Made by a program: the position numbers and the translations under genes. 64,000 nt of DNA, taken from assembly GCF_015627105.1 (NCBI RefSeq), contig NZ_VTDM01000010.1:62001-126000 (forward strand), given 5' to 3'. This document shows, in pieces, positions 29,374 to 36,655 of the stretch (position 1 is the stretch's first letter; every line of letters begins with the position of its first letter). The notes beneath the pieces were generated by a model, which was not told where the DNA came from, searched no databases, and saw only the letters and a list, made by a program, of their open reading frames with translations. The stretch comes from Acinetobacter baretiae. Its GTDB lineage: Bacteria > Pseudomonadota > Gammaproteobacteria > Pseudomonadales > Moraxellaceae.

Positions 29374-30021
29374 CTAATGAGTATGGCTATATACTAACGC
29401 AATAATTAAACTTACTGTAATGATAAAAAAGATAATATTAATTCGTTTTTGCGATGCTTTCATATGACGAACACGGTTTTTAAGCTGTTTGTTTTCGACA
29501 TACAGTTGATTGATCTTAGCGCGTTGATGGTCTATTTTTTCAAGTAAAGTCGAGGTGCGAAGAGGGGAACTAATAGTTTCTTTTTTTAAACTTGCACTAA
29601 AAATCCACTTTTTCCAATCACTACCAAGGTGAGGTAAAGATAATGAAATGAGAAAATCTCTCAATTGATCTTTGGTGGTGTTGTCTTCGCTATATATTTT
29701 AATACCATAGATACTTTTTTTATTCCCTAAAGCTAAAGCTTGAGCATAGCCAAAAATTGTACTGCTGATTTCAATTGTTGTGGTTTTTTCAGGGGGTTGA
29801 AGGTTAAAGAGCAGTCCTTGACTTGAAAAACTCACATAAAAATTAAAGTAGGGAATGTAACAATTGACTTTGAGAGAAATATTTTTCTCTACAAAAGGAA
29901 TTGCTTGTTGTTTGACAATTGGATCATGCTTAAAGACAAAGCTATAAAAGGTTTCTAAGACAATCATGAGTGCTTCAAGCAAGAAAGAAAGTCGCTTTTT
30001 TTCTTCTGTTGGTGTGTTCAT
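29374..30021 (-). CDS. Membrane-anchored protein of unknown function with a possible UbiJ/SCP2-like domain
   Basis: 215 aa. I do not recognise it confidently. The N-terminal 130 residues (LLEALMIVLETFYSFVF, then alternating strands, then STIFGYAQALALG and a final helix DQLRDFLISLSLP) follow the order of UbiJ, an SCP2-fold ubiquinone-biosynthesis factor: helix, LRVEVKG-type strands, then YASVL-like and QFV-like elements. After this comes a coiled coil (about 155-190, HQRAKINQLYVENKQLKNRVRHM) and one C-terminal membrane helix (about 193-210). UbiJ itself lacks the membrane anchor. It lies upstream of, and divergent from, hupB. Confidence 0.6.
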   Translation of the reverse strand: MNTPTEEKKRLSFLLEALMIVLETFYSFVFKHDPIVKQQAIPFVEKNISLKVNCYIPYFNFYVSFSSQGLLFNLQPPEKTTTIEISSTIFGYAQALALGNKKSIYGIKIYSEDNTTKDQLRDFLISLSLPHLGSDWKKWIFSASLKKETISSPLRTSTLLEKIDHQRAKINQLYVENKQLKNRVRHMKASQKRINIIFFIITVSLIIALVYSHTH

Positions 30022-30434
30022 GACTGAATATCCTAAATTAAATGTCGTTCATGCATCTATAAGCGTATTATTTTGTCGTGGGCTTATGCCTGTTACGCTT
30101 AACTTATTGGCTACTAAAATAGATCAAAAGTGCATATCTAGCAAGGTTGGAAGTTGCAATGATACATTGTTGCATAGTTCTTATACATGTTATTGACTAT
30201 AAATATAATTATAGATACTTTTTTTCATTGTCATTCATCGTAAACGCCGTAAAAGATACTGTTTTACGTAAAAATATGGCTTTTCGTGTTTTTTTTGTTT
30301 TTTTAAAATTAAAAAGTATGAAAAGCGATAACTGAGTCTTGCCTTTTCCCCCAAAGCATTGATATAAAGGCATTGAGGTAAGATATAGAACATGACTAGA
30401 TCTTAAATAGACCATATTAGAGGACATAATCTTC
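30022..30434. other. Intergenic region between the divergent unknown gene and hupB
   Basis: 413 bp, AT-rich with long T-runs near 30280-30310. No open frame with a convincing start is present. Promoters for both genes must lie here; I see only weak -10/-35 candidates and no clear operator. Confidence 0.6.
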
Positions 30435-30707
30435 ATGAATAAATCAGAATTGATTGATAACATTGCACAAAATGGGGGATTGTCAAAGGTTGATGCAGGA
30501 AAAGCACTTGATGCAACAATTGCGTCTATTACAAAAGCATTACAAGCTGGCGACACAGTAACTTTGGTGGGTTTTGGTACATTTGCTGTAAAAGAGCGTG
30601 CAGCACGTACAGGTCGTAACCCAAAAACAGGCGAAGAGCTACAAATTAAGGCGAGCAAAGTACCAAGCTTTAAAGCAGGTAAAAGCCTAAAAGATGCGGT
30701 TGTATAA
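30435..30707 (+). CDS. hupB: DNA-binding protein HU
   Basis: Histone-like nucleoid protein. 90 aa; [25 protein letters not shown] at the start and the DNA-binding arm [26 protein letters not shown] are characteristic. Upstream AGAGGACA provides a ribosome binding site. A strong terminator follows, so it is a single-gene unit placed before ppiD, a neighbourhood shared with many gammaproteobacteria. Confidence 0.95.
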
Positions 30708-30720
30708 TTACAAACCGTGT

Positions 30721-30748
30721 AAAAACGCGCTTAAAGGCGCGTTTTTTT
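30721..30748 (+). terminator. Intrinsic terminator after hupB
   Basis: ACGCGC (30725-30730), loop TTAAAG, GCGCGT (30737-30742) and a run of T. The A-run on the left extends the stem. Confidence 0.9.
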
Positions 30749-30839
30749 ATGCATGCTGGCAAAATAAATCTGGTGTAATACATGCATTGATGGTGTGATT
30801 TCAGTTAGAATTGCAAACAAATAAGATATTGGAATACAG

Positions 30840-32705
30840 ATGGAATCGTTTCGTAAACTGATTAAAGGTTGGTTGGGTATTGTATTACTTGTTTTATTCC
30901 TAATTCCTTTAGCGCTTGTGGGTGTTGAAGGCTATTTTAGTGGATCGAACAAGGGAGATGTTGCTAAAAAAGTGAATGGTCAGGATATTTCAAATAAAGA
31001 GCTTGATGAGTTGGTTAAATCTTATCAACAGCAGTATTTGCAATATGTTCAAGGTGATGAATCTCTTTTGAATACGGATGTGATTCGAGAATCAGCATTA
31101 AATACATTAATTGCCAGAACCTTACTTTTACAGCAAGCTGGTAAATTGGGTATCGAAATGAGTGATACTCAGTTTGTACAAATGTTGTCTCAGCTACCAG
31201 ATTTTCAAGTGAATGGTAAGTTTAGTAATGAGGTATTTGGTAATTACTTACGCAGTCGTGGTATTACAAAAGAAGCACTGCTTGCAAACTTACAACAAGA
31301 CCATGCTTTAAAAATGTTAACTGCAACAGCATCGAGTTACGCACTTACAACGCATCAAGGTGTTGAAAATTTTGTTAATTTACAGTCAGAACAAAGAGAG
31401 CTTTATCTGTCGAGTATTAAACTTGATGAATATAAAAAAGGAATTGTGATATCTAACCAAGATGTTGCTAATTATTATGAAAAACATAAAAATGAGTTTA
31501 GACGTAGTTCATCTGTAGACGTAGACTACGTAGTAGTTAAACCAAGTATGTTTACACAAACCACCCCAATTACAGAAGCAGAGCTTACACAAGCTTACAC
31601 GCAATATGTGGACGCACAAAAAAATAATGCTAAAAAAGATGTTCGCCATATCTTAATTACGAAAGATACACGTAGTGAAGAAGATGCTTTAAAATTGGCA
31701 AATGATGTAGAAGCAAAACTAAAAGCAGGTTTATCTTTTGCAGATGCAGCTAAACAATACTCTGAAGACCCAACTTCTAAAACTAAAGGAGGTTTGATTG
31801 AGGGGTATCAAGCAGGTACATTAGGCTCAACAGAGTTTGATGATGCAGTGAAAACATTGAAAGACCATACTATTTCTGCACCTGTAAAAACAAACTTTGG
31901 TTATCACATTATTGATGTGAACACTGAAGCAGTAAAAATTGCATCTTTTGAAGAAGAAAAGGCAAAACTGCAAGCAAGCTTAGAACAAAGTAAACGTGCA
32001 AATGCATATACAGATGCGGTAAATGGACTAAATGATGCCGCGGTAAGTGCCGATGCTTTAGATGTTATTACCCAGCAAATCAAAACCACCTCTATTCAAA
32101 GTGCTAAAAATGTCACACTTTGGACAAGTAACCCATATTTAAGTCAGCCTGTTGTGAAAACCAAGTTATTTAATAATGAAGTGAAAAATGGTGATCGTAA
32201 TATTTCAACGAGTATTGCATTGGCGAATGGTGAAACTTTGTGGTTAAAGGTTCGTAATTATCACCCTGAAGGGCTACAAACCTTAGAGCAAGCAACAGAT
32301 GCTATTAAAGTCACGCTGTTAAATAAAAAAGCAGCGGCACTTGCGACAGCTAAAATTATGTCAACTTTAGAGGCATTCAAAACAGAACCTGCAGCGCAGG
32401 TGATTGCAAAAAGCAATATTAAGTTTGAAAAACCTGCATTGTTTAATCGTCAGAATTTGAGAAAAGATATTGCAGATGTGGCTTTCACTCAACCTGTACC
32501 TAAAGCGGGTATGTGGTCTGTAGGTACAGCAGATTTAGCGGATGAGCTTGTGATTGTGGCTGTTTCTAAAGTAGATAGAGATGCATTTAGTAAGCTCACA
32601 CCTGAACAAGTACAGCAAGCTACCAAGGCGTATCAGCAACTTCGTGGTGAGCAAGAGTTAGCAGACTATATTGACTATCTAAAATCAATTGCAAAGATTA
32701 AGTAG
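30840..32705 (+). CDS. ppiD: Periplasmic folding chaperone PpiD
   Basis: Inner-membrane-anchored parvulin-like protein that meets proteins leaving the Sec translocon. 621 aa. One N-terminal membrane helix (about 10-33, GWLGIVLLVLFLIPLALVGVEG), a SurA-type N-domain, and one parvulin domain (about 260-355; DVRHILI ... GGLIEGY ... TNFGYHIIDV). The C-terminal region resembles the N-terminal fold half and is helical. Length and layout match E. coli PpiD (623 aa). Confidence 0.94.
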   Translation: MESFRKLIKGWLGIVLLVLFLIPLALVGVEGYFSGSNKGDVAKKVNGQDISNKELDELVKSYQQQYLQYVQGDESLLNTDVIRESALNTLIARTLLLQQAGKLGIEMSDTQFVQMLSQLPDFQVNGKFSNEVFGNYLRSRGITKEALLANLQQDHALKMLTATASSYALTTHQGVENFVNLQSEQRELYLSSIKLDEYKKGIVISNQDVANYYEKHKNEFRRSSSVDVDYVVVKPSMFTQTTPITEAELTQAYTQYVDAQKNNAKKDVRHILITKDTRSEEDALKLANDVEAKLKAGLSFADAAKQYSEDPTSKTKGGLIEGYQAGTLGSTEFDDAVKTLKDHTISAPVKTNFGYHIIDVNTEAVKIASFEEEKAKLQASLEQSKRANAYTDAVNGLNDAAVSADALDVITQQIKTTSIQSAKNVTLWTSNPYLSQPVVKTKLFNNEVKNGDRNISTSIALANGETLWLKVRNYHPEGLQTLEQATDAIKVTLLNKKAAALATAKIMSTLEAFKTEPAAQVIAKSNIKFEKPALFNRQNLRKDIADVAFTQPVPKAGMWSVGTADLADELVIVAVSKVDRDAFSKLTPEQVQQATKAYQQLRGEQELADYIDYLKSIAKIK

Positions 32706-32717
32706 TTGATTTGTATC

Positions 32718-32752
32718 CATGTCATTCTCTAGAGAGTGACATGAATTTTTTT
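32718..32752 (+). terminator. Intrinsic terminator after ppiD
   Basis: The 13-nt arms 32718-32730 and 32731-32743 pair end to end with one G-T wobble (CATGTCA...TGACATG), followed by a run of seven T at 32746-32752. Confidence 0.88.
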
Positions 32753-32762
32753 AGATTAAGAC

Positions 32763-32791
32763 TTGTCAGTATCCGTAAAATAGCGTATTTT
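32763..32791 (+). promoter_or_regulatory. Candidate promoter of the aroG leader
   Basis: TTGTCA (32763-32768), 17-bp spacer, TATTTT (32786-32791), about 30 bases before the first leader-peptide start. This is the only reasonable match between the ppiD terminator and the leader; a TAAAAT at 32791-32796 could instead serve as the -10. Confidence 0.45.
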
Positions 32792-32824
32792 AAAATGAGA
32801 TCATATTTATTTTGAAGACAATAC

Positions 32825-32881
32825 ATGACCTTGTTGATGCAATCTGTTTTTTCATACGTATACTTTTGGCACTTTAGATAA
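32825..32881 (+). CDS. Aromatic-rich leader peptide 1 of aroG
   Basis: 18-codon ORF with the product MTLLMQSVFSYVYFWHFR. Phe occupies 9, 14 and 17, Tyr 11 and 13, Trp 15: six aromatic codons in nine. A second in-frame ATG is at 32837. A weak purine-rich site (GAAGAC) lies before 32825. Codons for the products of the pathway cluster just ahead of a terminator, as in PheL, TrpL and PheM leaders. The stop codon directly abuts the first strand of the hairpin series. Too short for a normal gene call; the evidence is composition and position. Confidence 0.8.
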   Translation: MTLLMQSVFSYVYFWHFR

Positions 32882-32963
32882 TTGCCCCTATACGTATGGG
32901 CAAAAGAAAGGTTGCCCATCAACATTTATGAACCTGATTGGCAGCCACCAATCAGGTTTTTTT
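32882..32963 (+). promoter_or_regulatory. Transcription attenuator of aroG (alternative hairpins and terminator)
   Basis: Strand 1 TTGCCC (32882-32887) pairs with strand 2 GGGCAA (32898-32903). Strand 2 can instead pair with strand 3 TTGCCC (32912-32917). Strand 3, as GGTTGCC (32910-32916), can pair with GGCAGCC (32940-32946) inside the terminator, giving an antiterminator. The terminator stem is AACCTGATTGG (32931-32941) / CCAATCAGGTT (32948-32958) with seven T (32957-32963). In addition CATACGTATA within the leader ORF (32853-32862) is a perfect complement of 32889-32898. The direction of control is inferred: early stalling at Tyr/Phe codons leaves 1:2 free to form, releasing 3 for the antiterminator. 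Confidence 0.75.
32931..32963 (+). terminator. Terminator hairpin of the aroG attenuator
   Basis: Perfect 11-bp stem, 6-nt loop CAGCCA, and seven T. It lies within the leader, upstream of aroG, so by position it is conditional rather than final. Confidence 0.9.
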
Positions 32964-32987
32964 ATGTCATATTTTTGGAGATTTCAC

Positions 32988-33077
32988 ATGAGTGACCATT
33001 TTAACTTTTACTTTTTCTATAGCCAATCTTATCTATCACAGCATACTCATCATCAAATACGATCTTCCCAGAAATAA
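32988..33077 (+). CDS. Second Phe/Tyr-rich small ORF between attenuator and aroG
   Basis: 29 codons; ATG with GGAG 7 bases upstream. Residues 4-12 read HFNFYFFYS, with a further Tyr at 15: four Phe and three Tyr in residues 5-15. The stop is 33 bases before the aroG ATG. An in-frame upstream ATG (32964) would add MSYFWRFH, which is also aromatic-rich. A GGGT-TTCG-ACCC mini-hairpin (33083-33094) sits between its stop and the aroG ribosome binding site. It could be a second, translational control level. No second terminator is visible. Confidence 0.65.
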   Translation: MSDHFNFYFFYSQSYLSQHTHHQIRSSQK

Positions 33078-33110
33078 GGTAAGGGTTTCGACCCCATAAA
33101 AGGATATACC

Positions 33111-34130
33111 ATGAACACAGTTGTTTTACCCATTCAAGAACAAGCACTTCCTACGCCACAGCAGTTAAAACAAGATTTACCCCTTTCAAGTGCGCTCAAA
33201 CTACAAATTACACAGCACAGACAGGTTGTAGATGCTATTTTAGCGGGTCAAGATGATCGGTTATTACTTATTATTGGTCCTTGTTCCATTCATGATCCTG
33301 TTGCAGTATTAGAATATGCAAAAAAATTAGAAAAACTACAACAACACGTCAAAGATCATATTTTTATTGTGATGCGTGCTTATATTGAAAAACCAAGAAC
33401 AACTGTGGGATGGAAAGGGTTTTTGTACGACCCAATGTTAGATGGTCGTGCAAATTTAAAACAAGGTATTGAAAAATCTCGCGAATTGTATCTCAAATTG
33501 GTTGAGATCGGCATTCCGATTGCAAGCGAAATTCTTAACCCAATGGCAACAGGTTATTTTGATGATTTGATTGCTTGGGGAGCAATTGGTGCAAGAACGT
33601 CTGAGTCGCAAATTCATCGTGAAATCTCAAGCAGTTTACCTTTTGCGGTAGGTTTTAAAAATGGTACAGATGGTTCGGTACAAATTGCTTTAGATGCTAT
33701 ACAGTCTGCTGCGGCTAAACATGATTTCTTCGCACTTGGGCAACATGGTGCGCCTGTCTTAAAGAGTAGTTTAGGCAATCCATTTCCGCATTTGATTTTA
33801 CGTGGTGCTAATACGGGCACGAACTATGATGCACAGTCAGTACAAAATATCAAAGACAAAGTGGGCGAAAATATGCCTGCTTTAGTGATTGATTGTAGTC
33901 ATGGTAATAGTGGTAAAGACCCTTTGAAGCAACCTGCGATTTTAAAACAAATTATTGCAGAAAGAAAGCTCACTCAAGTCAGGGGAGTTATGGTAGAAAG
34001 TCATCTTCTTGATGGTGCACAAAAAATTTCAACAGACATGACTTACGGAAAATCGGTGACAGATGGTTGTTTAGGATGGGAAAAAACTGAGCAACTTGTA
34101 TTGCACGTATGTCGTGATTTATCTATTTAG
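33111..34130 (+). CDS. aroG: 3-deoxy-7-phosphoheptulonate (DAHP) synthase, AroG/AroF type
   Basis: First enzyme of the shikimate pathway: condenses PEP and erythrose 4-phosphate. 339 aa, type I alpha class. LLIIGPCSIHDPVAVLEYA, MRAYIEKPRTTVGWKGF, GARTSESQIHRE, VGFKNGTDGS and DCSHGNSGKDP are the active-site blocks. Which aromatic amino acid inhibits it cannot be read from the sequence; the leader codons point to Phe, Tyr and Trp. AAAAGGA precedes the ATG. Transcription is probably attenuated (entries above). Confidence 0.94.
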   Translation: MNTVVLPIQEQALPTPQQLKQDLPLSSALKLQITQHRQVVDAILAGQDDRLLLIIGPCSIHDPVAVLEYAKKLEKLQQHVKDHIFIVMRAYIEKPRTTVGWKGFLYDPMLDGRANLKQGIEKSRELYLKLVEIGIPIASEILNPMATGYFDDLIAWGAIGARTSESQIHREISSSLPFAVGFKNGTDGSVQIALDAIQSAAAKHDFFALGQHGAPVLKSSLGNPFPHLILRGANTGTNYDAQSVQNIKDKVGENMPALVIDCSHGNSGKDPLKQPAILKQIIAERKLTQVRGVMVESHLLDGAQKISTDMTYGKSVTDGCLGWEKTEQLVLHVCRDLSI

Positions 34131-34150
34131 TACGACTTTGAAAAGTAGGG

Positions 34151-34179
34151 TACAGGTGCTTTGAGCACCTGTATTTTTT
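34151..34179 (+). terminator. Bidirectional terminator between aroG and gcvH
   Basis: TACAGGTGCT (34151-34160), loop TTG, AGCACCTGTA (34164-34173), then T-run to 34179, which touches the gcvH 3' end. Confidence 0.9.
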
Positions 34180-34552
34180 ATAGACCTGCTTCGTATGCTG
34201 TACTCGAAAGTAAATATTCTAGATCTTTAATATTGTCTGGCTTTATTTTATAAATCCAACCTTTACCATAAGGATCATCATTAATGAAATCGGGGTCATC
34301 CTCTAACGCATCATTTACTTCTACGATAGTGCCTGAAATCGGCATATGAATATCTGATGCAGTCTTTACTGACTCGACGACACCCGTTTGAGTCGTGGCT
34401 TCGATATGTTGTCCAATGTCAGGTAGTTCAACATACACTAAATCACCTAGAGCATCTTGTGCATGATCTGAGATTCCTGTAACAACTAAATCACCTTCGA
34501 GTCTAACCCATTCATGGGTTGAAGCATATTTTAGATCTGCTGGATGGTTCAT
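34178..34552 (-). CDS. gcvH: Glycine cleavage system H protein
   Basis: Lipoylated shuttle protein of glycine cleavage. 124 aa with the lipoylation motif VESVKTASD (Lys63) and the [13 protein letters not shown] fold core. It is alone here; gcvP and gcvT are not in the window. A stand-alone H protein can also serve as a lipoate carrier for other enzymes, so its main role may be lipoyl relay. Confidence 0.92.
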
Positions 34553-34598
34553 AAAAATATCCTATTTTATATCTAGAAGCATATTGTATTTTGAAATG

Positions 34599-34633
34599 AA
34601 AAAACCTACTTATCATGATGAGCAGGTTTTTTT
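34599..34633 (-). terminator. Terminator after cysB
   Basis: ACCT...AGGT stem of about 12 bp with one wobble and one mismatch, flanked by runs of A and T, 15 bases past the cysB stop (minus strand). It ends the sulfate-uptake transcription unit before gcvH. Confidence 0.75.
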
Positions 34634-34648
34634 ATTGCTTAAACGTGT

Positions 34649-35572
34649 TTATTCATCTGGGTATGCGGCTTTTTTTAAGGCTTTGATATTGGCTTCAGGT
34701 GAACATAACGAAATAAAATTGTAGCCATAACCACGCAGTAAGTGCCCTTTACGTACAGCAATCCATGTAGTGTTGATATCAAAAAGTGTTGTTTTCACTT
34801 GTGATAAGTGAATGTCACGTTTTTCATCATAGGCAATACTGTTAATAATACCAATACCCATACCTAATTCTACATAGGTTTTAATCACATCTGTATCTAA
34901 GGCAGACATTACAATATCTGCATCTAAATGGGCATCGATGAATGCTTGATTGATTTTAGCTCGACCCGTAAAGCCTTCATGATACGTTACAATAGGATAT
35001 TGCGCCAAGTCTTCAAGCGTGATGTGCTCAAGCTTGGTCAAAGGATGTTCTTTGGGCGTAATAATACTATGCTGCCATGTATAGTATGGAATACCCGCTA
35101 AATTATCTTCTGTGGTTAATGATTCTGTTGCAATGCCGATATCGGCTTGCCCCTGTAAAAGCATTTCTACAATTTCAGAAGGGCTTGCTTGTTGTAATAC
35201 CAAGTGGACTTTGGGAAATTGCTTTTTAAATAAATTGACAATCGGTGGTAAAATATAACGTGCTTGGGTATGTGTAGTTGCAATCGTTAATGTACCTTCA
35301 TCGATTTTATTAAATTCATCGGCAAGACGTTTGATGTTTTCTGCATCAATTAACATACGCTCTACCACAGACAATAGAGCTTGTCCTGGCTCGGTCAAGC
35401 CTAAAATTCTCTTTCCTTTACGAATAAAAAGTTGAACACCGAGTTCATCTTCTAGGTCTTTAATGTGTTTACTTACGCCAGATTGTGAAGTAAATAACGC
35501 AGCAGATGCTTCGGTTAGATTAAAGTTTTGTCTAACCGTTTCACGAATAATGCGTAATTGCTGAAAATTCAT
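34649..35572 (-). CDS. cysB: LysR-family sulfur regulator CysB (or Cbl-like)
   Basis: Activates sulfate uptake and cysteine synthesis genes when its inducer (N-acetylserine in the well-studied case) is present. 307 aa. The winged HTH is in residues 1-60 (NLTEASAALFTSQSGVSKHIKDLEDELG, exactly CysB-like), followed by a type 2 periplasmic-binding-like effector domain (TTHTQARYILPPIVNLFK; DTDVIKTYVELGMGIGI). It lies just downstream of cysA on the same strand, so it may regulate its own operon. Cbl cannot be excluded. Confidence 0.88.
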   Translation of the reverse strand: MNFQQLRIIRETVRQNFNLTEASAALFTSQSGVSKHIKDLEDELGVQLFIRKGKRILGLTEPGQALLSVVERMLIDAENIKRLADEFNKIDEGTLTIATTHTQARYILPPIVNLFKKQFPKVHLVLQQASPSEIVEMLLQGQADIGIATESLTTEDNLAGIPYYTWQHSIITPKEHPLTKLEHITLEDLAQYPIVTYHEGFTGRAKINQAFIDAHLDADIVMSALDTDVIKTYVELGMGIGIINSIAYDEKRDIHLSQVKTTLFDINTTWIAVRKGHLLRGYGYNFISLCSPEANIKALKKAAYPDE

Positions 35573-35590
35573 GTTTTTATACTCTTATTG

Positions 35591-36655
35591 TTAGGCTATA
35601 GAGGATGACTTCGTTTCAAACAGATGTAAATGCTTTGCAGTAATCCAAACGGTTTGACCTGCTGTTAAAATTTGAGCACTGGCTTCTTCTTGTGAAACAA
35701 AAATCTCAATTGGATGTTGGTTACGATCTTCTAGTTCAGCAATAATTTTACCTGCAACCCAGACATAACGTAAGAAGGTGGCTTCAATAGAATGTGCTAA
35801 ATGTTGTGTATGAATAATAAGTTCATGTGGTCGAGCAAATGCAGTGACCTGTCCATTTTCACGCGATGATGTTAGTTCTAAACTGTCATTACCGATATGT
35901 AGCACACTATTTTGTGTTGTTCCTTCAAATCGATTGGCTTGTCCTAAAAAGTCAAAAACAAAAGGCGTTTGTGGTTGTTGGTATACTTCACGAGGTGAGC
36001 CAATTTGCTCAATATTTCCTTTATTCATGACAACAATTTTGTCTGCAACCTCTAAGGCTTCTTCTTGGTCATGTGTAACAAAAATAGAGGTAATATGTAG
36101 TTCATCGTGTAAATGTCTTAGCCAACGTCTTAATTCTTTGCGTACTTTAGCATCTAGTGCCCCAAATGGTTCATCAAGTAACAATACCCGTGGTTCTACA
36201 GCCAATGCTCTTGCAAGGGCAATACGTTGGCGTTGTCCACCTGAGAGTTGTGATGGGTAACGGTCAGAGAGAAAATCTAGTTGAACGAGTTCAAGAAGTT
36301 GGTGTACACGTTGTTTAATTTCTGCATCTGACGGGCGGGTAGATTTTGGACGTACACGTAAACCAAAGGCAACATTTTCAAAGACTGTCATGTGTCTAAA
36401 AAGTGCATAATGTTGGAACACGAATCCTACTTGTCGCTCTCTTACGTGTGTGCGGGTGGCATCTGAACCTTCGAGCAAGACTTGCCCCGAGTCAGCTTGC
36501 TCTAACCCAGCAATAATACGCAATAAAGTGGTTTTACCACAGCCTGATGGGCCAAGTAGTGCCACCAATTGACCTTCAGGAAAGTCTAAGCTAATGTTGT
36601 TGAGAGCGTGAAAATCACCAAAATGCTTTTCTATATTTTTAACTTGGATACTCAT
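35591..36655 (-). CDS. cysA: Sulfate/thiosulfate ABC transporter ATP-binding protein CysA
   Basis: ATPase of the sulfate importer. 354 aa. Walker [10 protein letters not shown] (about 34-42), signature [15 protein letters not shown], Walker [13 protein letters not shown], and a C-terminal TOBE-like regulatory domain (about 235-350). It follows cysW by 12 bases. With CysT, CysW and Sbp it forms a complete system. Confidence 0.95.

Follow-up and report, generated by a model that had tools for sequence, protein, structure and literature searches.

The intergenic region in front of aroG in Acinetobacter baretiae appears to be a two-stage control region that responds to aromatic amino acids. A short reading frame rich in Phe, Tyr and Trp codons (L1) is followed by mutually exclusive RNA pairings and an intrinsic terminator, and a second aromatic-rich frame (L2) lies between the terminator and the gene. 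The two frames, and the covariation of the terminator, of the helix between segments 1 and 2 and of a hairpin before the aroG Shine-Dalgarno sequence (SD hairpin), come from comparison between loci, while the dependence on ribosome position is computed. From these we infer translation, tRNA sensing and the entire mechanism of the second stage.

The aroG leader and its first reading frame

Positions are those of the window, the 64,000-nucleotide stretch of the A. baretiae genome that was analysed. The leader and its surroundings are laid out as follows.

30840-32705: gene for a PpiD-like peptidyl-prolyl isomerase, the 5' neighbour
32706-33110: intergenic leader of 405 nt, with the ORFs L1 and L2 and a terminator-like hairpin inside
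32763-32791, plus strand: probable sigma-70 promoter, TTGTCA-N17-TATTTT (9/12 in a consensus scan; sites with this score are no rarer in shuffled sequence)
32825-32881, plus strand: L1 leader peptide ORF, MTLLMQSVFSYVYFWHFR and stop, present in 66/66 Acinetobacter-type aroG loci
33111-34130, plus strand: gene for an aroG-type class-I DAHP synthase of 339 aa

An earlier note on this DNA had placed a leader of 405 bp before a DAHP synthase gene, and both statements hold. The gene product scores above cut-off with TIGR00034 (aroFGH; 404 bits, cut-off 173) and with NF009395 (460 bits, cut-off 343), and its relatives of solved structure include the Tyr-sensitive 6agm and the Phe-regulated 1kfl/1gg1. 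The upstream gene, which ends at 32705, has its own terminator-like hairpin at 32718-32743, and the scanned region holds three terminator-like sites vs 0.4 expected from shuffles. The promoter-like sequence ends about 33 nt ahead of the L1 start, and a site resembling TTGWCA-N15-19-TAYNNT stands 5' of L1 in 37/66 loci. We found no Rfam leader family, riboswitch or T-box in 32706-33110, and a scan of 30000-36000 gave chance-level matches below the gathering scores. In E. coli, DAHP synthase is under the TyrR and TrpR repressors. Neither a Trp repressor (PF01371) nor a TyrR-type HTH (PF18024) was found in the A. baretiae genome by searches that were positive in E. coli controls, and RNA leader control may stand in for these regulators.

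L1 has 18 codons, with its ATG at 32825 and a TAA at 32879-32881. The peptide sequence proposed earlier is confirmed, as are the six aromatic residues within nine codons (F9, Y11, Y13, F14, W15 and F17), which include all three amino acids. The Shine-Dalgarno sequence of L1 is weak in this genome (GAAG) and across Acinetobacter, and several Pseudomonas-type loci have GGAG ahead of L1. By itself, the composition of L1 is modestly unusual and amounts to weak evidence: 1.5% of dinucleotide shuffles of the leader hold an ATG ORF with at least six aromatics in nine residues (2.7% if any start codon is allowed), and 5/975 short ATG ORFs in the window reach this density, two of the five being those of this leader.

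Conservation is decisive. From named genomes we collected 80 DAHP synthase loci, of which 65 Acinetobacter-type loci were analysed together with the window, giving 66. L1 occupies the same place in all 66 with zero in-frame stops, and the other two frames contain 90 and 55 stops. Its pooled pN/pS is 0.45 in frame (bootstrap 0.27-0.66) vs 1.13 and 1.14 in the other frames, which serve here and for L2 as the control for RNA-level constraint. The last nine codons always include at least five aromatics (mean 5.8), and F, Y and W all occur in every L1. The Trp codon is invariant and the codon after it nearly always begins with CA, as expected if these bases also pair (segment 0, below). The conservation check that the earlier note had called for thus comes out in its favour, as the ORF and its aromatic codons are kept across the genus under in-frame constraint, and at the level of sequence comparison this makes certain that L1 is a real conserved coding sequence. 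That the aromatic run arose by chance in an AT-rich leader, as the 1.5-2.7% of shuffled leaders might allow, is refuted by this conservation and has a negligible probability; the feature also recurs in Pseudomonas-type genomes, whose GC-rich composition makes aromatic codons rare.

As controls we took 40 regions upstream of other DAHP synthase genes from the order, some of them second copies within leader-bearing genomes, and 38/40 lack an ORF with at least five aromatics in nine. One of the two exceptions, L151, is the same locus as L111. The other, L135 (family f40), has a different aromatic-rich short ORF ending in ..MAPIGWWFTYFKS, about 140-235 nt 5' of the DAHP synthase match, which is possibly a separate, independent leader ahead of an other-type DAHP synthase. 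The paralogous DAHP synthase locus of the A. baretiae genome (L002) has no leader of note upstream.

Alternative pairings between L1 and the terminator

As the earlier note had stated, L1 ends directly before a series of hairpins and a terminator. We divide this RNA into five segments that are alternately complementary.

32854-32871, plus strand: segment 0, ATACGTATA (32854-32862) and GGCA (32868-32871), within the L1 control codons
32882-32887, plus strand: segment 1, TTGCCC, immediately 3' of the L1 stop codon and covered by a terminating ribosome
32898-32903, plus strand: segment 2, GGGCAA, partner of segment 1 or segment 3
32910-32918, plus strand: segment 3, GGTTGCCCA, partner of segment 2 (terminator state) or segment 4 (antiterminator)
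32940-32946, plus strand: segment 4, GGCAGCC, upper 5' stem and loop of the terminator and antiterminator partner of segment 3
32930-32963, plus strand: intrinsic terminator, a 12-bp stem and T-run (hairpin proper 32930-32959)

Helix conservation was scored on a 36-sequence alignment against 500 shuffles and slid controls. The terminator is paired in 99.4% of cells, 8 of them changed on both sides, and the 1:2 helix in 97.2%, with 12 changed on both sides; for each, 0/500 shuffles match. The 0:1 helix is paired in 95.6% of cells, and its GGCA/TGCC core in 36/36 sequences; the GGCA lies in the Trp-His codons, and ATACGTATA is an extension in this genome. The 2:3 and 3:4 helices are paired in 89.5% and 90.7% of cells; all three values exceed those of the slid controls. 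The 0:1, 2:3 and 3:4 helices are almost invariant in Acinetobacter, as expected for segments that have two partners, so that the support for 2:3 and 3:4 there is invariance and not covariation. In the Pseudomonas-type set, which we call P15-type for reasons given below, compensatory changes are seen in the 3:4 antiterminator (UA to AU, 5 cells, 0/500 shuffles).

The calculated folds agree with a switch between these pairings. The whole leader folds into 0:1, 2:3 and the terminator (-38.3 kcal/mol, z -5.2); in this minimum free energy fold, with L1 untranslated, segment 0 pairs with segment 1 and with 32889-32897. Without segments 0 and 1, the fold consists of 2:3 and the terminator. When segment 1 is free and the 3' arm of the terminator is incomplete (32882-32951), the 1:2 helix and the 3:4 antiterminator form instead. 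We then placed a model ribosome along L1 in the 66 sequences. An A-site placed in the aromatic stretch, three to seven codons ahead of the stop (-7 to -3), gives a p12 of about 1.0 and a p34 of 0.80-0.84; near the L1 stop, p12 falls to 0.01-0.03 and p34 to about 0.43, and the probability of 2:3 with the ribosome at the stop codon is about 0.4. In 65/66 sequences, a ribosome on the aromatic codons favours the antiterminator more strongly than one at the stop does. The folds and the scan are equilibrium calculations on truncated RNAs and not kinetics. Because the complete RNA prefers the terminator at equilibrium, antitermination must be kinetic, as is usual among attenuators.

These models contain a mutually exclusive antiterminator that is switched by ribosome position. 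With all three tRNAs (Phe, Tyr and Trp) charged, a ribosome would reach the L1 stop codon and cover segment 1, and segments 2 and 3 would pair. Segment 4 would then stay in the terminator, and transcription would end after about 165 nt. If any one of these charged tRNAs is scarce, the ribosome would wait at the aromatic codons and the 1:2 helix would form, which would free segment 3 for segment 4 and let RNA polymerase continue into aroG. If L1 is untranslated, the fold of this genome predicts that 0:1 and 2:3 form and that the terminator wins. We regard it as highly likely that the L1 region is a ribosome-mediated transcription attenuator, and the switch very probably allows aroG to be read out only under aromatic amino-acid shortage. 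The attenuation proposed in the earlier note is thus supported for L1 by conservation, exclusive pairings and a conserved terminator; translation and tRNA sensing are, as before, what we infer from them. That reading was also incomplete: L2 and the SD hairpin were missed, as were the wide spread beyond Acinetobacter and the fact that the Pseudomonas version is P15.

The element shares with E. coli trpL, pheL and pheM a short, conserved leader ORF with a run of product codons, alternative hairpins and an intrinsic terminator before a biosynthetic gene. Unlike these, the Acinetobacter leader would control a DAHP synthase, has codons for all three aromatic products in L1 alone, contains five segments of alternating complementarity, with segment 1 immediately after the stop codon, and carries a second leader after the terminator.

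A second reading frame between the terminator and aroG

The stretch between the terminator and the gene contains four further features.

32977-32980, plus strand: L2 Shine-Dalgarno sequence GGAG, of GGAG/AGGA type and at the expected spacing in nearly all Acinetobacter loci
32988-33077, plus strand: L2 leader peptide ORF, MSDHFNFYFFYSQSYLSQHTHHQIRSSQK and stop, between the terminator and aroG
33083-33094, plus strand: SD hairpin, GGGT-TTCG-ACCC, 3' of the L2 stop codon and 5' of the aroG Shine-Dalgarno sequence
33098-33104, plus strand: aroG Shine-Dalgarno sequence AAAAGGA, with a counterpart in other loci

L2, whose Shine-Dalgarno sequence is a good one in this genome, is kept at the same place in 66/66 Acinetobacter-type loci with zero in-frame stops, and its pN/pS over these loci is 0.71 in frame (0.55-0.87) vs 1.10 and 1.00 off frame. 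The first 20 residues contain a mean of 8.6 aromatics in Acinetobacter vs 2.3 expected from base composition, and 6.4 vs 0.7 in the P15-type set. In the latter, L2 was located by the TGGCGATTTA pattern, which 33/35 loci had, and its pN/pS (0.79, 0.62-1.01, in frame vs 0.90 and 0.87 off frame) does not fall clearly below the off-frame values, partly because TGGCGATTTA is fixed at the nucleotide level. This sequence (Trp-Arg-Phe, with CGA and TTT codons) is nucleotide-identical in L2 of GC-rich, widely separated genomes (L153-L187). Such identity exceeds the need of the peptide, and an RNA-level or slow-codon role is possible.

The SD hairpin covaries, with 5/6 pairs changed on both sides in 23 cells (0/500 shuffles). 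In this genome it has just 4 bp, and the local fold is no more stable than shuffles. We considered a second intrinsic terminator after L2 and rejected it, as the hairpin is followed by no U-run (T-run in the DNA) in any lineage looked at. RNAalifold on the L2-aroG interval recovered the SD hairpin alone in the main clade and nothing once the clade of the window was added; a conserved competing helix that would hide the aroG Shine-Dalgarno sequence or pair with L2 codons was not found in this search. The modelled probability that the aroG Shine-Dalgarno sequence is unpaired drops from 0.60 for a ribosome in mid-L2 to 0.36 for one that has reached the L2 stop, a modest change.

The L2 frame varies among relatives in two ways. 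In Acinetobacter populi, A. puyangensis and A. qingfengensis (L064, L065 and L067) it overlaps the aroG start codon, so that some effect on aroG translation is hard to avoid. In L089, L094, L096 and L097, L1 and the terminator stand directly 5' of aroG without a clear L2, and L2 is thus dispensable in some lineages.

A second stage, made up of L2 and the SD hairpin, would act on RNA that has passed the terminator, and its most likely target is aroG translation. A ribosome waiting at the L2 aromatic codons would leave the SD hairpin intact and the aroG start free, and a ribosome at the L2 stop would break the hairpin and let the aroG start region fold. We tentatively favour translational control of this kind, that is translational attenuation, and put it at slightly below an even chance. 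It is rather unlikely that L1 alone is regulatory, with L2 encoding a conserved small protein or serving to load ribosomes and with its aromatics unrelated to sensing. The C-terminal end of L2 is also kept (..RPITLK, ..RTLR), and both the missing U-run and the absence of L2 from some relatives would fit that reading. It does not account for the aromatic excess of the first 20 residues in two distant groups (6.4-8.6 vs 0.7-2.3 expected), for the placement of L2 between attenuator and gene, or for the covarying hairpin that separates its stop codon from the aroG Shine-Dalgarno sequence. We also consider it unlikely that L2 provides translational coupling or mRNA protection, with its ribosomes barring Rho and RNases or re-initiating at aroG. 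The overlap with the aroG start in the three species named above agrees with coupling, as does a hairpin that draws the L2 stop near the aroG Shine-Dalgarno sequence. Under simple coupling, however, AroG would fall when aromatics are short, contrary to the need of the pathway, and the aromatic codons of L2 would go unexplained.

Distribution of the leader and its relation to Rfam P15

A covariance model built for the L1 attenuator element (R1) detects a single copy in each of 114/119 Acinetobacter genomes, and in the A. baretiae genome it finds this place only. The five negative genomes (G315, G316, G317, G318 and G363; loci L188-L193) are without this aroG and keep only other-type DAHP synthases that are 47-51% identical, which suggests that aroG and its leader were lost jointly. 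Outside the genus, orthologous aroG genes with L1 equivalents occur in Pseudomonas matsuisoli (L066), in Alcanivorax (L069, L070) and in several other families of the order. These frames, for example ..GYFFYGYWFSQRRA and ..AFYGYWFSHGVP, are followed by a terminator and often by an L2 such as MNTTYYRYYRNSDWRFSSALRATQRALPRTLR, and the order L1, terminator, L2, hairpin, aroG recurs in Pseudomonas-type loci. Of the ten R1 matches that rank below that of the window, nine fall where the leader is expected, though they are weak individually. Homology of the leader across families is supported by gene orthology, by the order of the elements and by these position-exact matches.

The L1-terminator region of the Pseudomonas- and Alcanivorax-type loci is Rfam RF00627, 'Pseudomonas sRNA P15' (matches at L066:1117-1235, L069:1146-1262, L083:1066-1186, L086:1055-1172, L089:1287-1409 and L090:1114-1231), with matches above the gathering score in Pseudomonas and some Alcanivorax-type orthologous loci. 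The Acinetobacter leader resembles P15 in its orthologous place 5' of an orthologous aroG, in an L1 with ..YWFS.. and in the same order of segments and terminator. It differs in that RF00627 matches neither the window nor any other part of the A. baretiae genome, so that the Acinetobacter version goes undetected. Direct cross-detection between the Acinetobacter model and P15 was tried and gave only weak matches, though position-exact ones. P15 is found in 70/99 genomes of the Pseudomonas-like family and in 14/195 genomes sampled across the order, the latter all in three families that also have this aroG. The 29/99 genomes of the Pseudomonas-like family without a P15 match include several whole genera. 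In all 35 P15 loci examined, this aroG lies downstream and an L1 ORF runs across the element, and 33/35 also have L2.

Rfam types RF00627 as a gene and not as a cis-regulatory leader, and PMC2375449 lists P15 with the sRNAs that Livny et al. detected in P. aeruginosa, so that a short transcript from this locus has apparently been seen. Both points would agree with a trans-acting small RNA in which the leader ORF is incidental. A short RNA is also the expected product of attenuation, every one of the 35 loci is upstream of this aroG with an L1, and L1 is under coding constraint in Acinetobacter; we therefore consider a purely trans-acting RNA very unlikely, and an additional trans role could exist beside cis attenuation. 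P15 is most simply read as the terminated leader of the first stage, and the Rfam type of RF00627 probably needs to be changed to cis-regulatory leader.

Related leaders have been reported elsewhere. A putative attenuator leader peptide (Phe-Tyr-Phe) precedes the DAHP synthase gene aroF of Corynebacterium glutamicum (PMC4046766), which belongs to another phylum; that gene is a different one, and the cited part of the source describes a single leader whose stated motif is without tryptophan. The Shewanella aroF and aroH genes, which are DAHP synthase genes of Gammaproteobacteria, have predicted regulatory RNAs of attenuator type (PMC2659441), listed as predictions and, in the part of that source cited, with no tandem leader described. 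Tandem attenuators with two short ORFs in one leader of one transcript are described for Salmonella mgtCBR (PMC3641672). As presented there, mgtCBR is a Mg2+ transport and virulence operon with different signals, while both Acinetobacter ORFs hold codons for the products of one pathway. Our literature search, whose reach stopped short of older comparative surveys of proteobacterial attenuators, found no report of an Acinetobacter aroG leader or of P15 as an attenuator. What appears to be new is a leader for three products on a DAHP synthase gene, a second leader in tandem with it and the assignment of P15; the class of mechanism is classical.

Taken together, the region may be a serial two-stage attenuator, with L1 acting on transcription and L2 on translation and both reading Phe, Tyr and Trp. 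It would extend from Acinetobacter to Pseudomonas and further families, be a main control of DAHP synthase where TyrR/TrpR-type regulators are absent, and yield P15 as its first-stage terminated product. We hold this full reading to be plausible, at a little less than an even chance. The leader offers a mechanism by which Acinetobacter controls entry into the aromatic pathway, in a genome without TrpR or a TyrR-type HTH, and it gives a function to the Pseudomonas 'sRNA' P15, a family that Rfam has not classed as cis-regulatory. If true, the reading of the same amino acids by another leader after the terminator would be an unusual serial double check, and metabolic engineers seeking aromatics overproduction in P. 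putida or A. baylyi would have to take both leaders into account.
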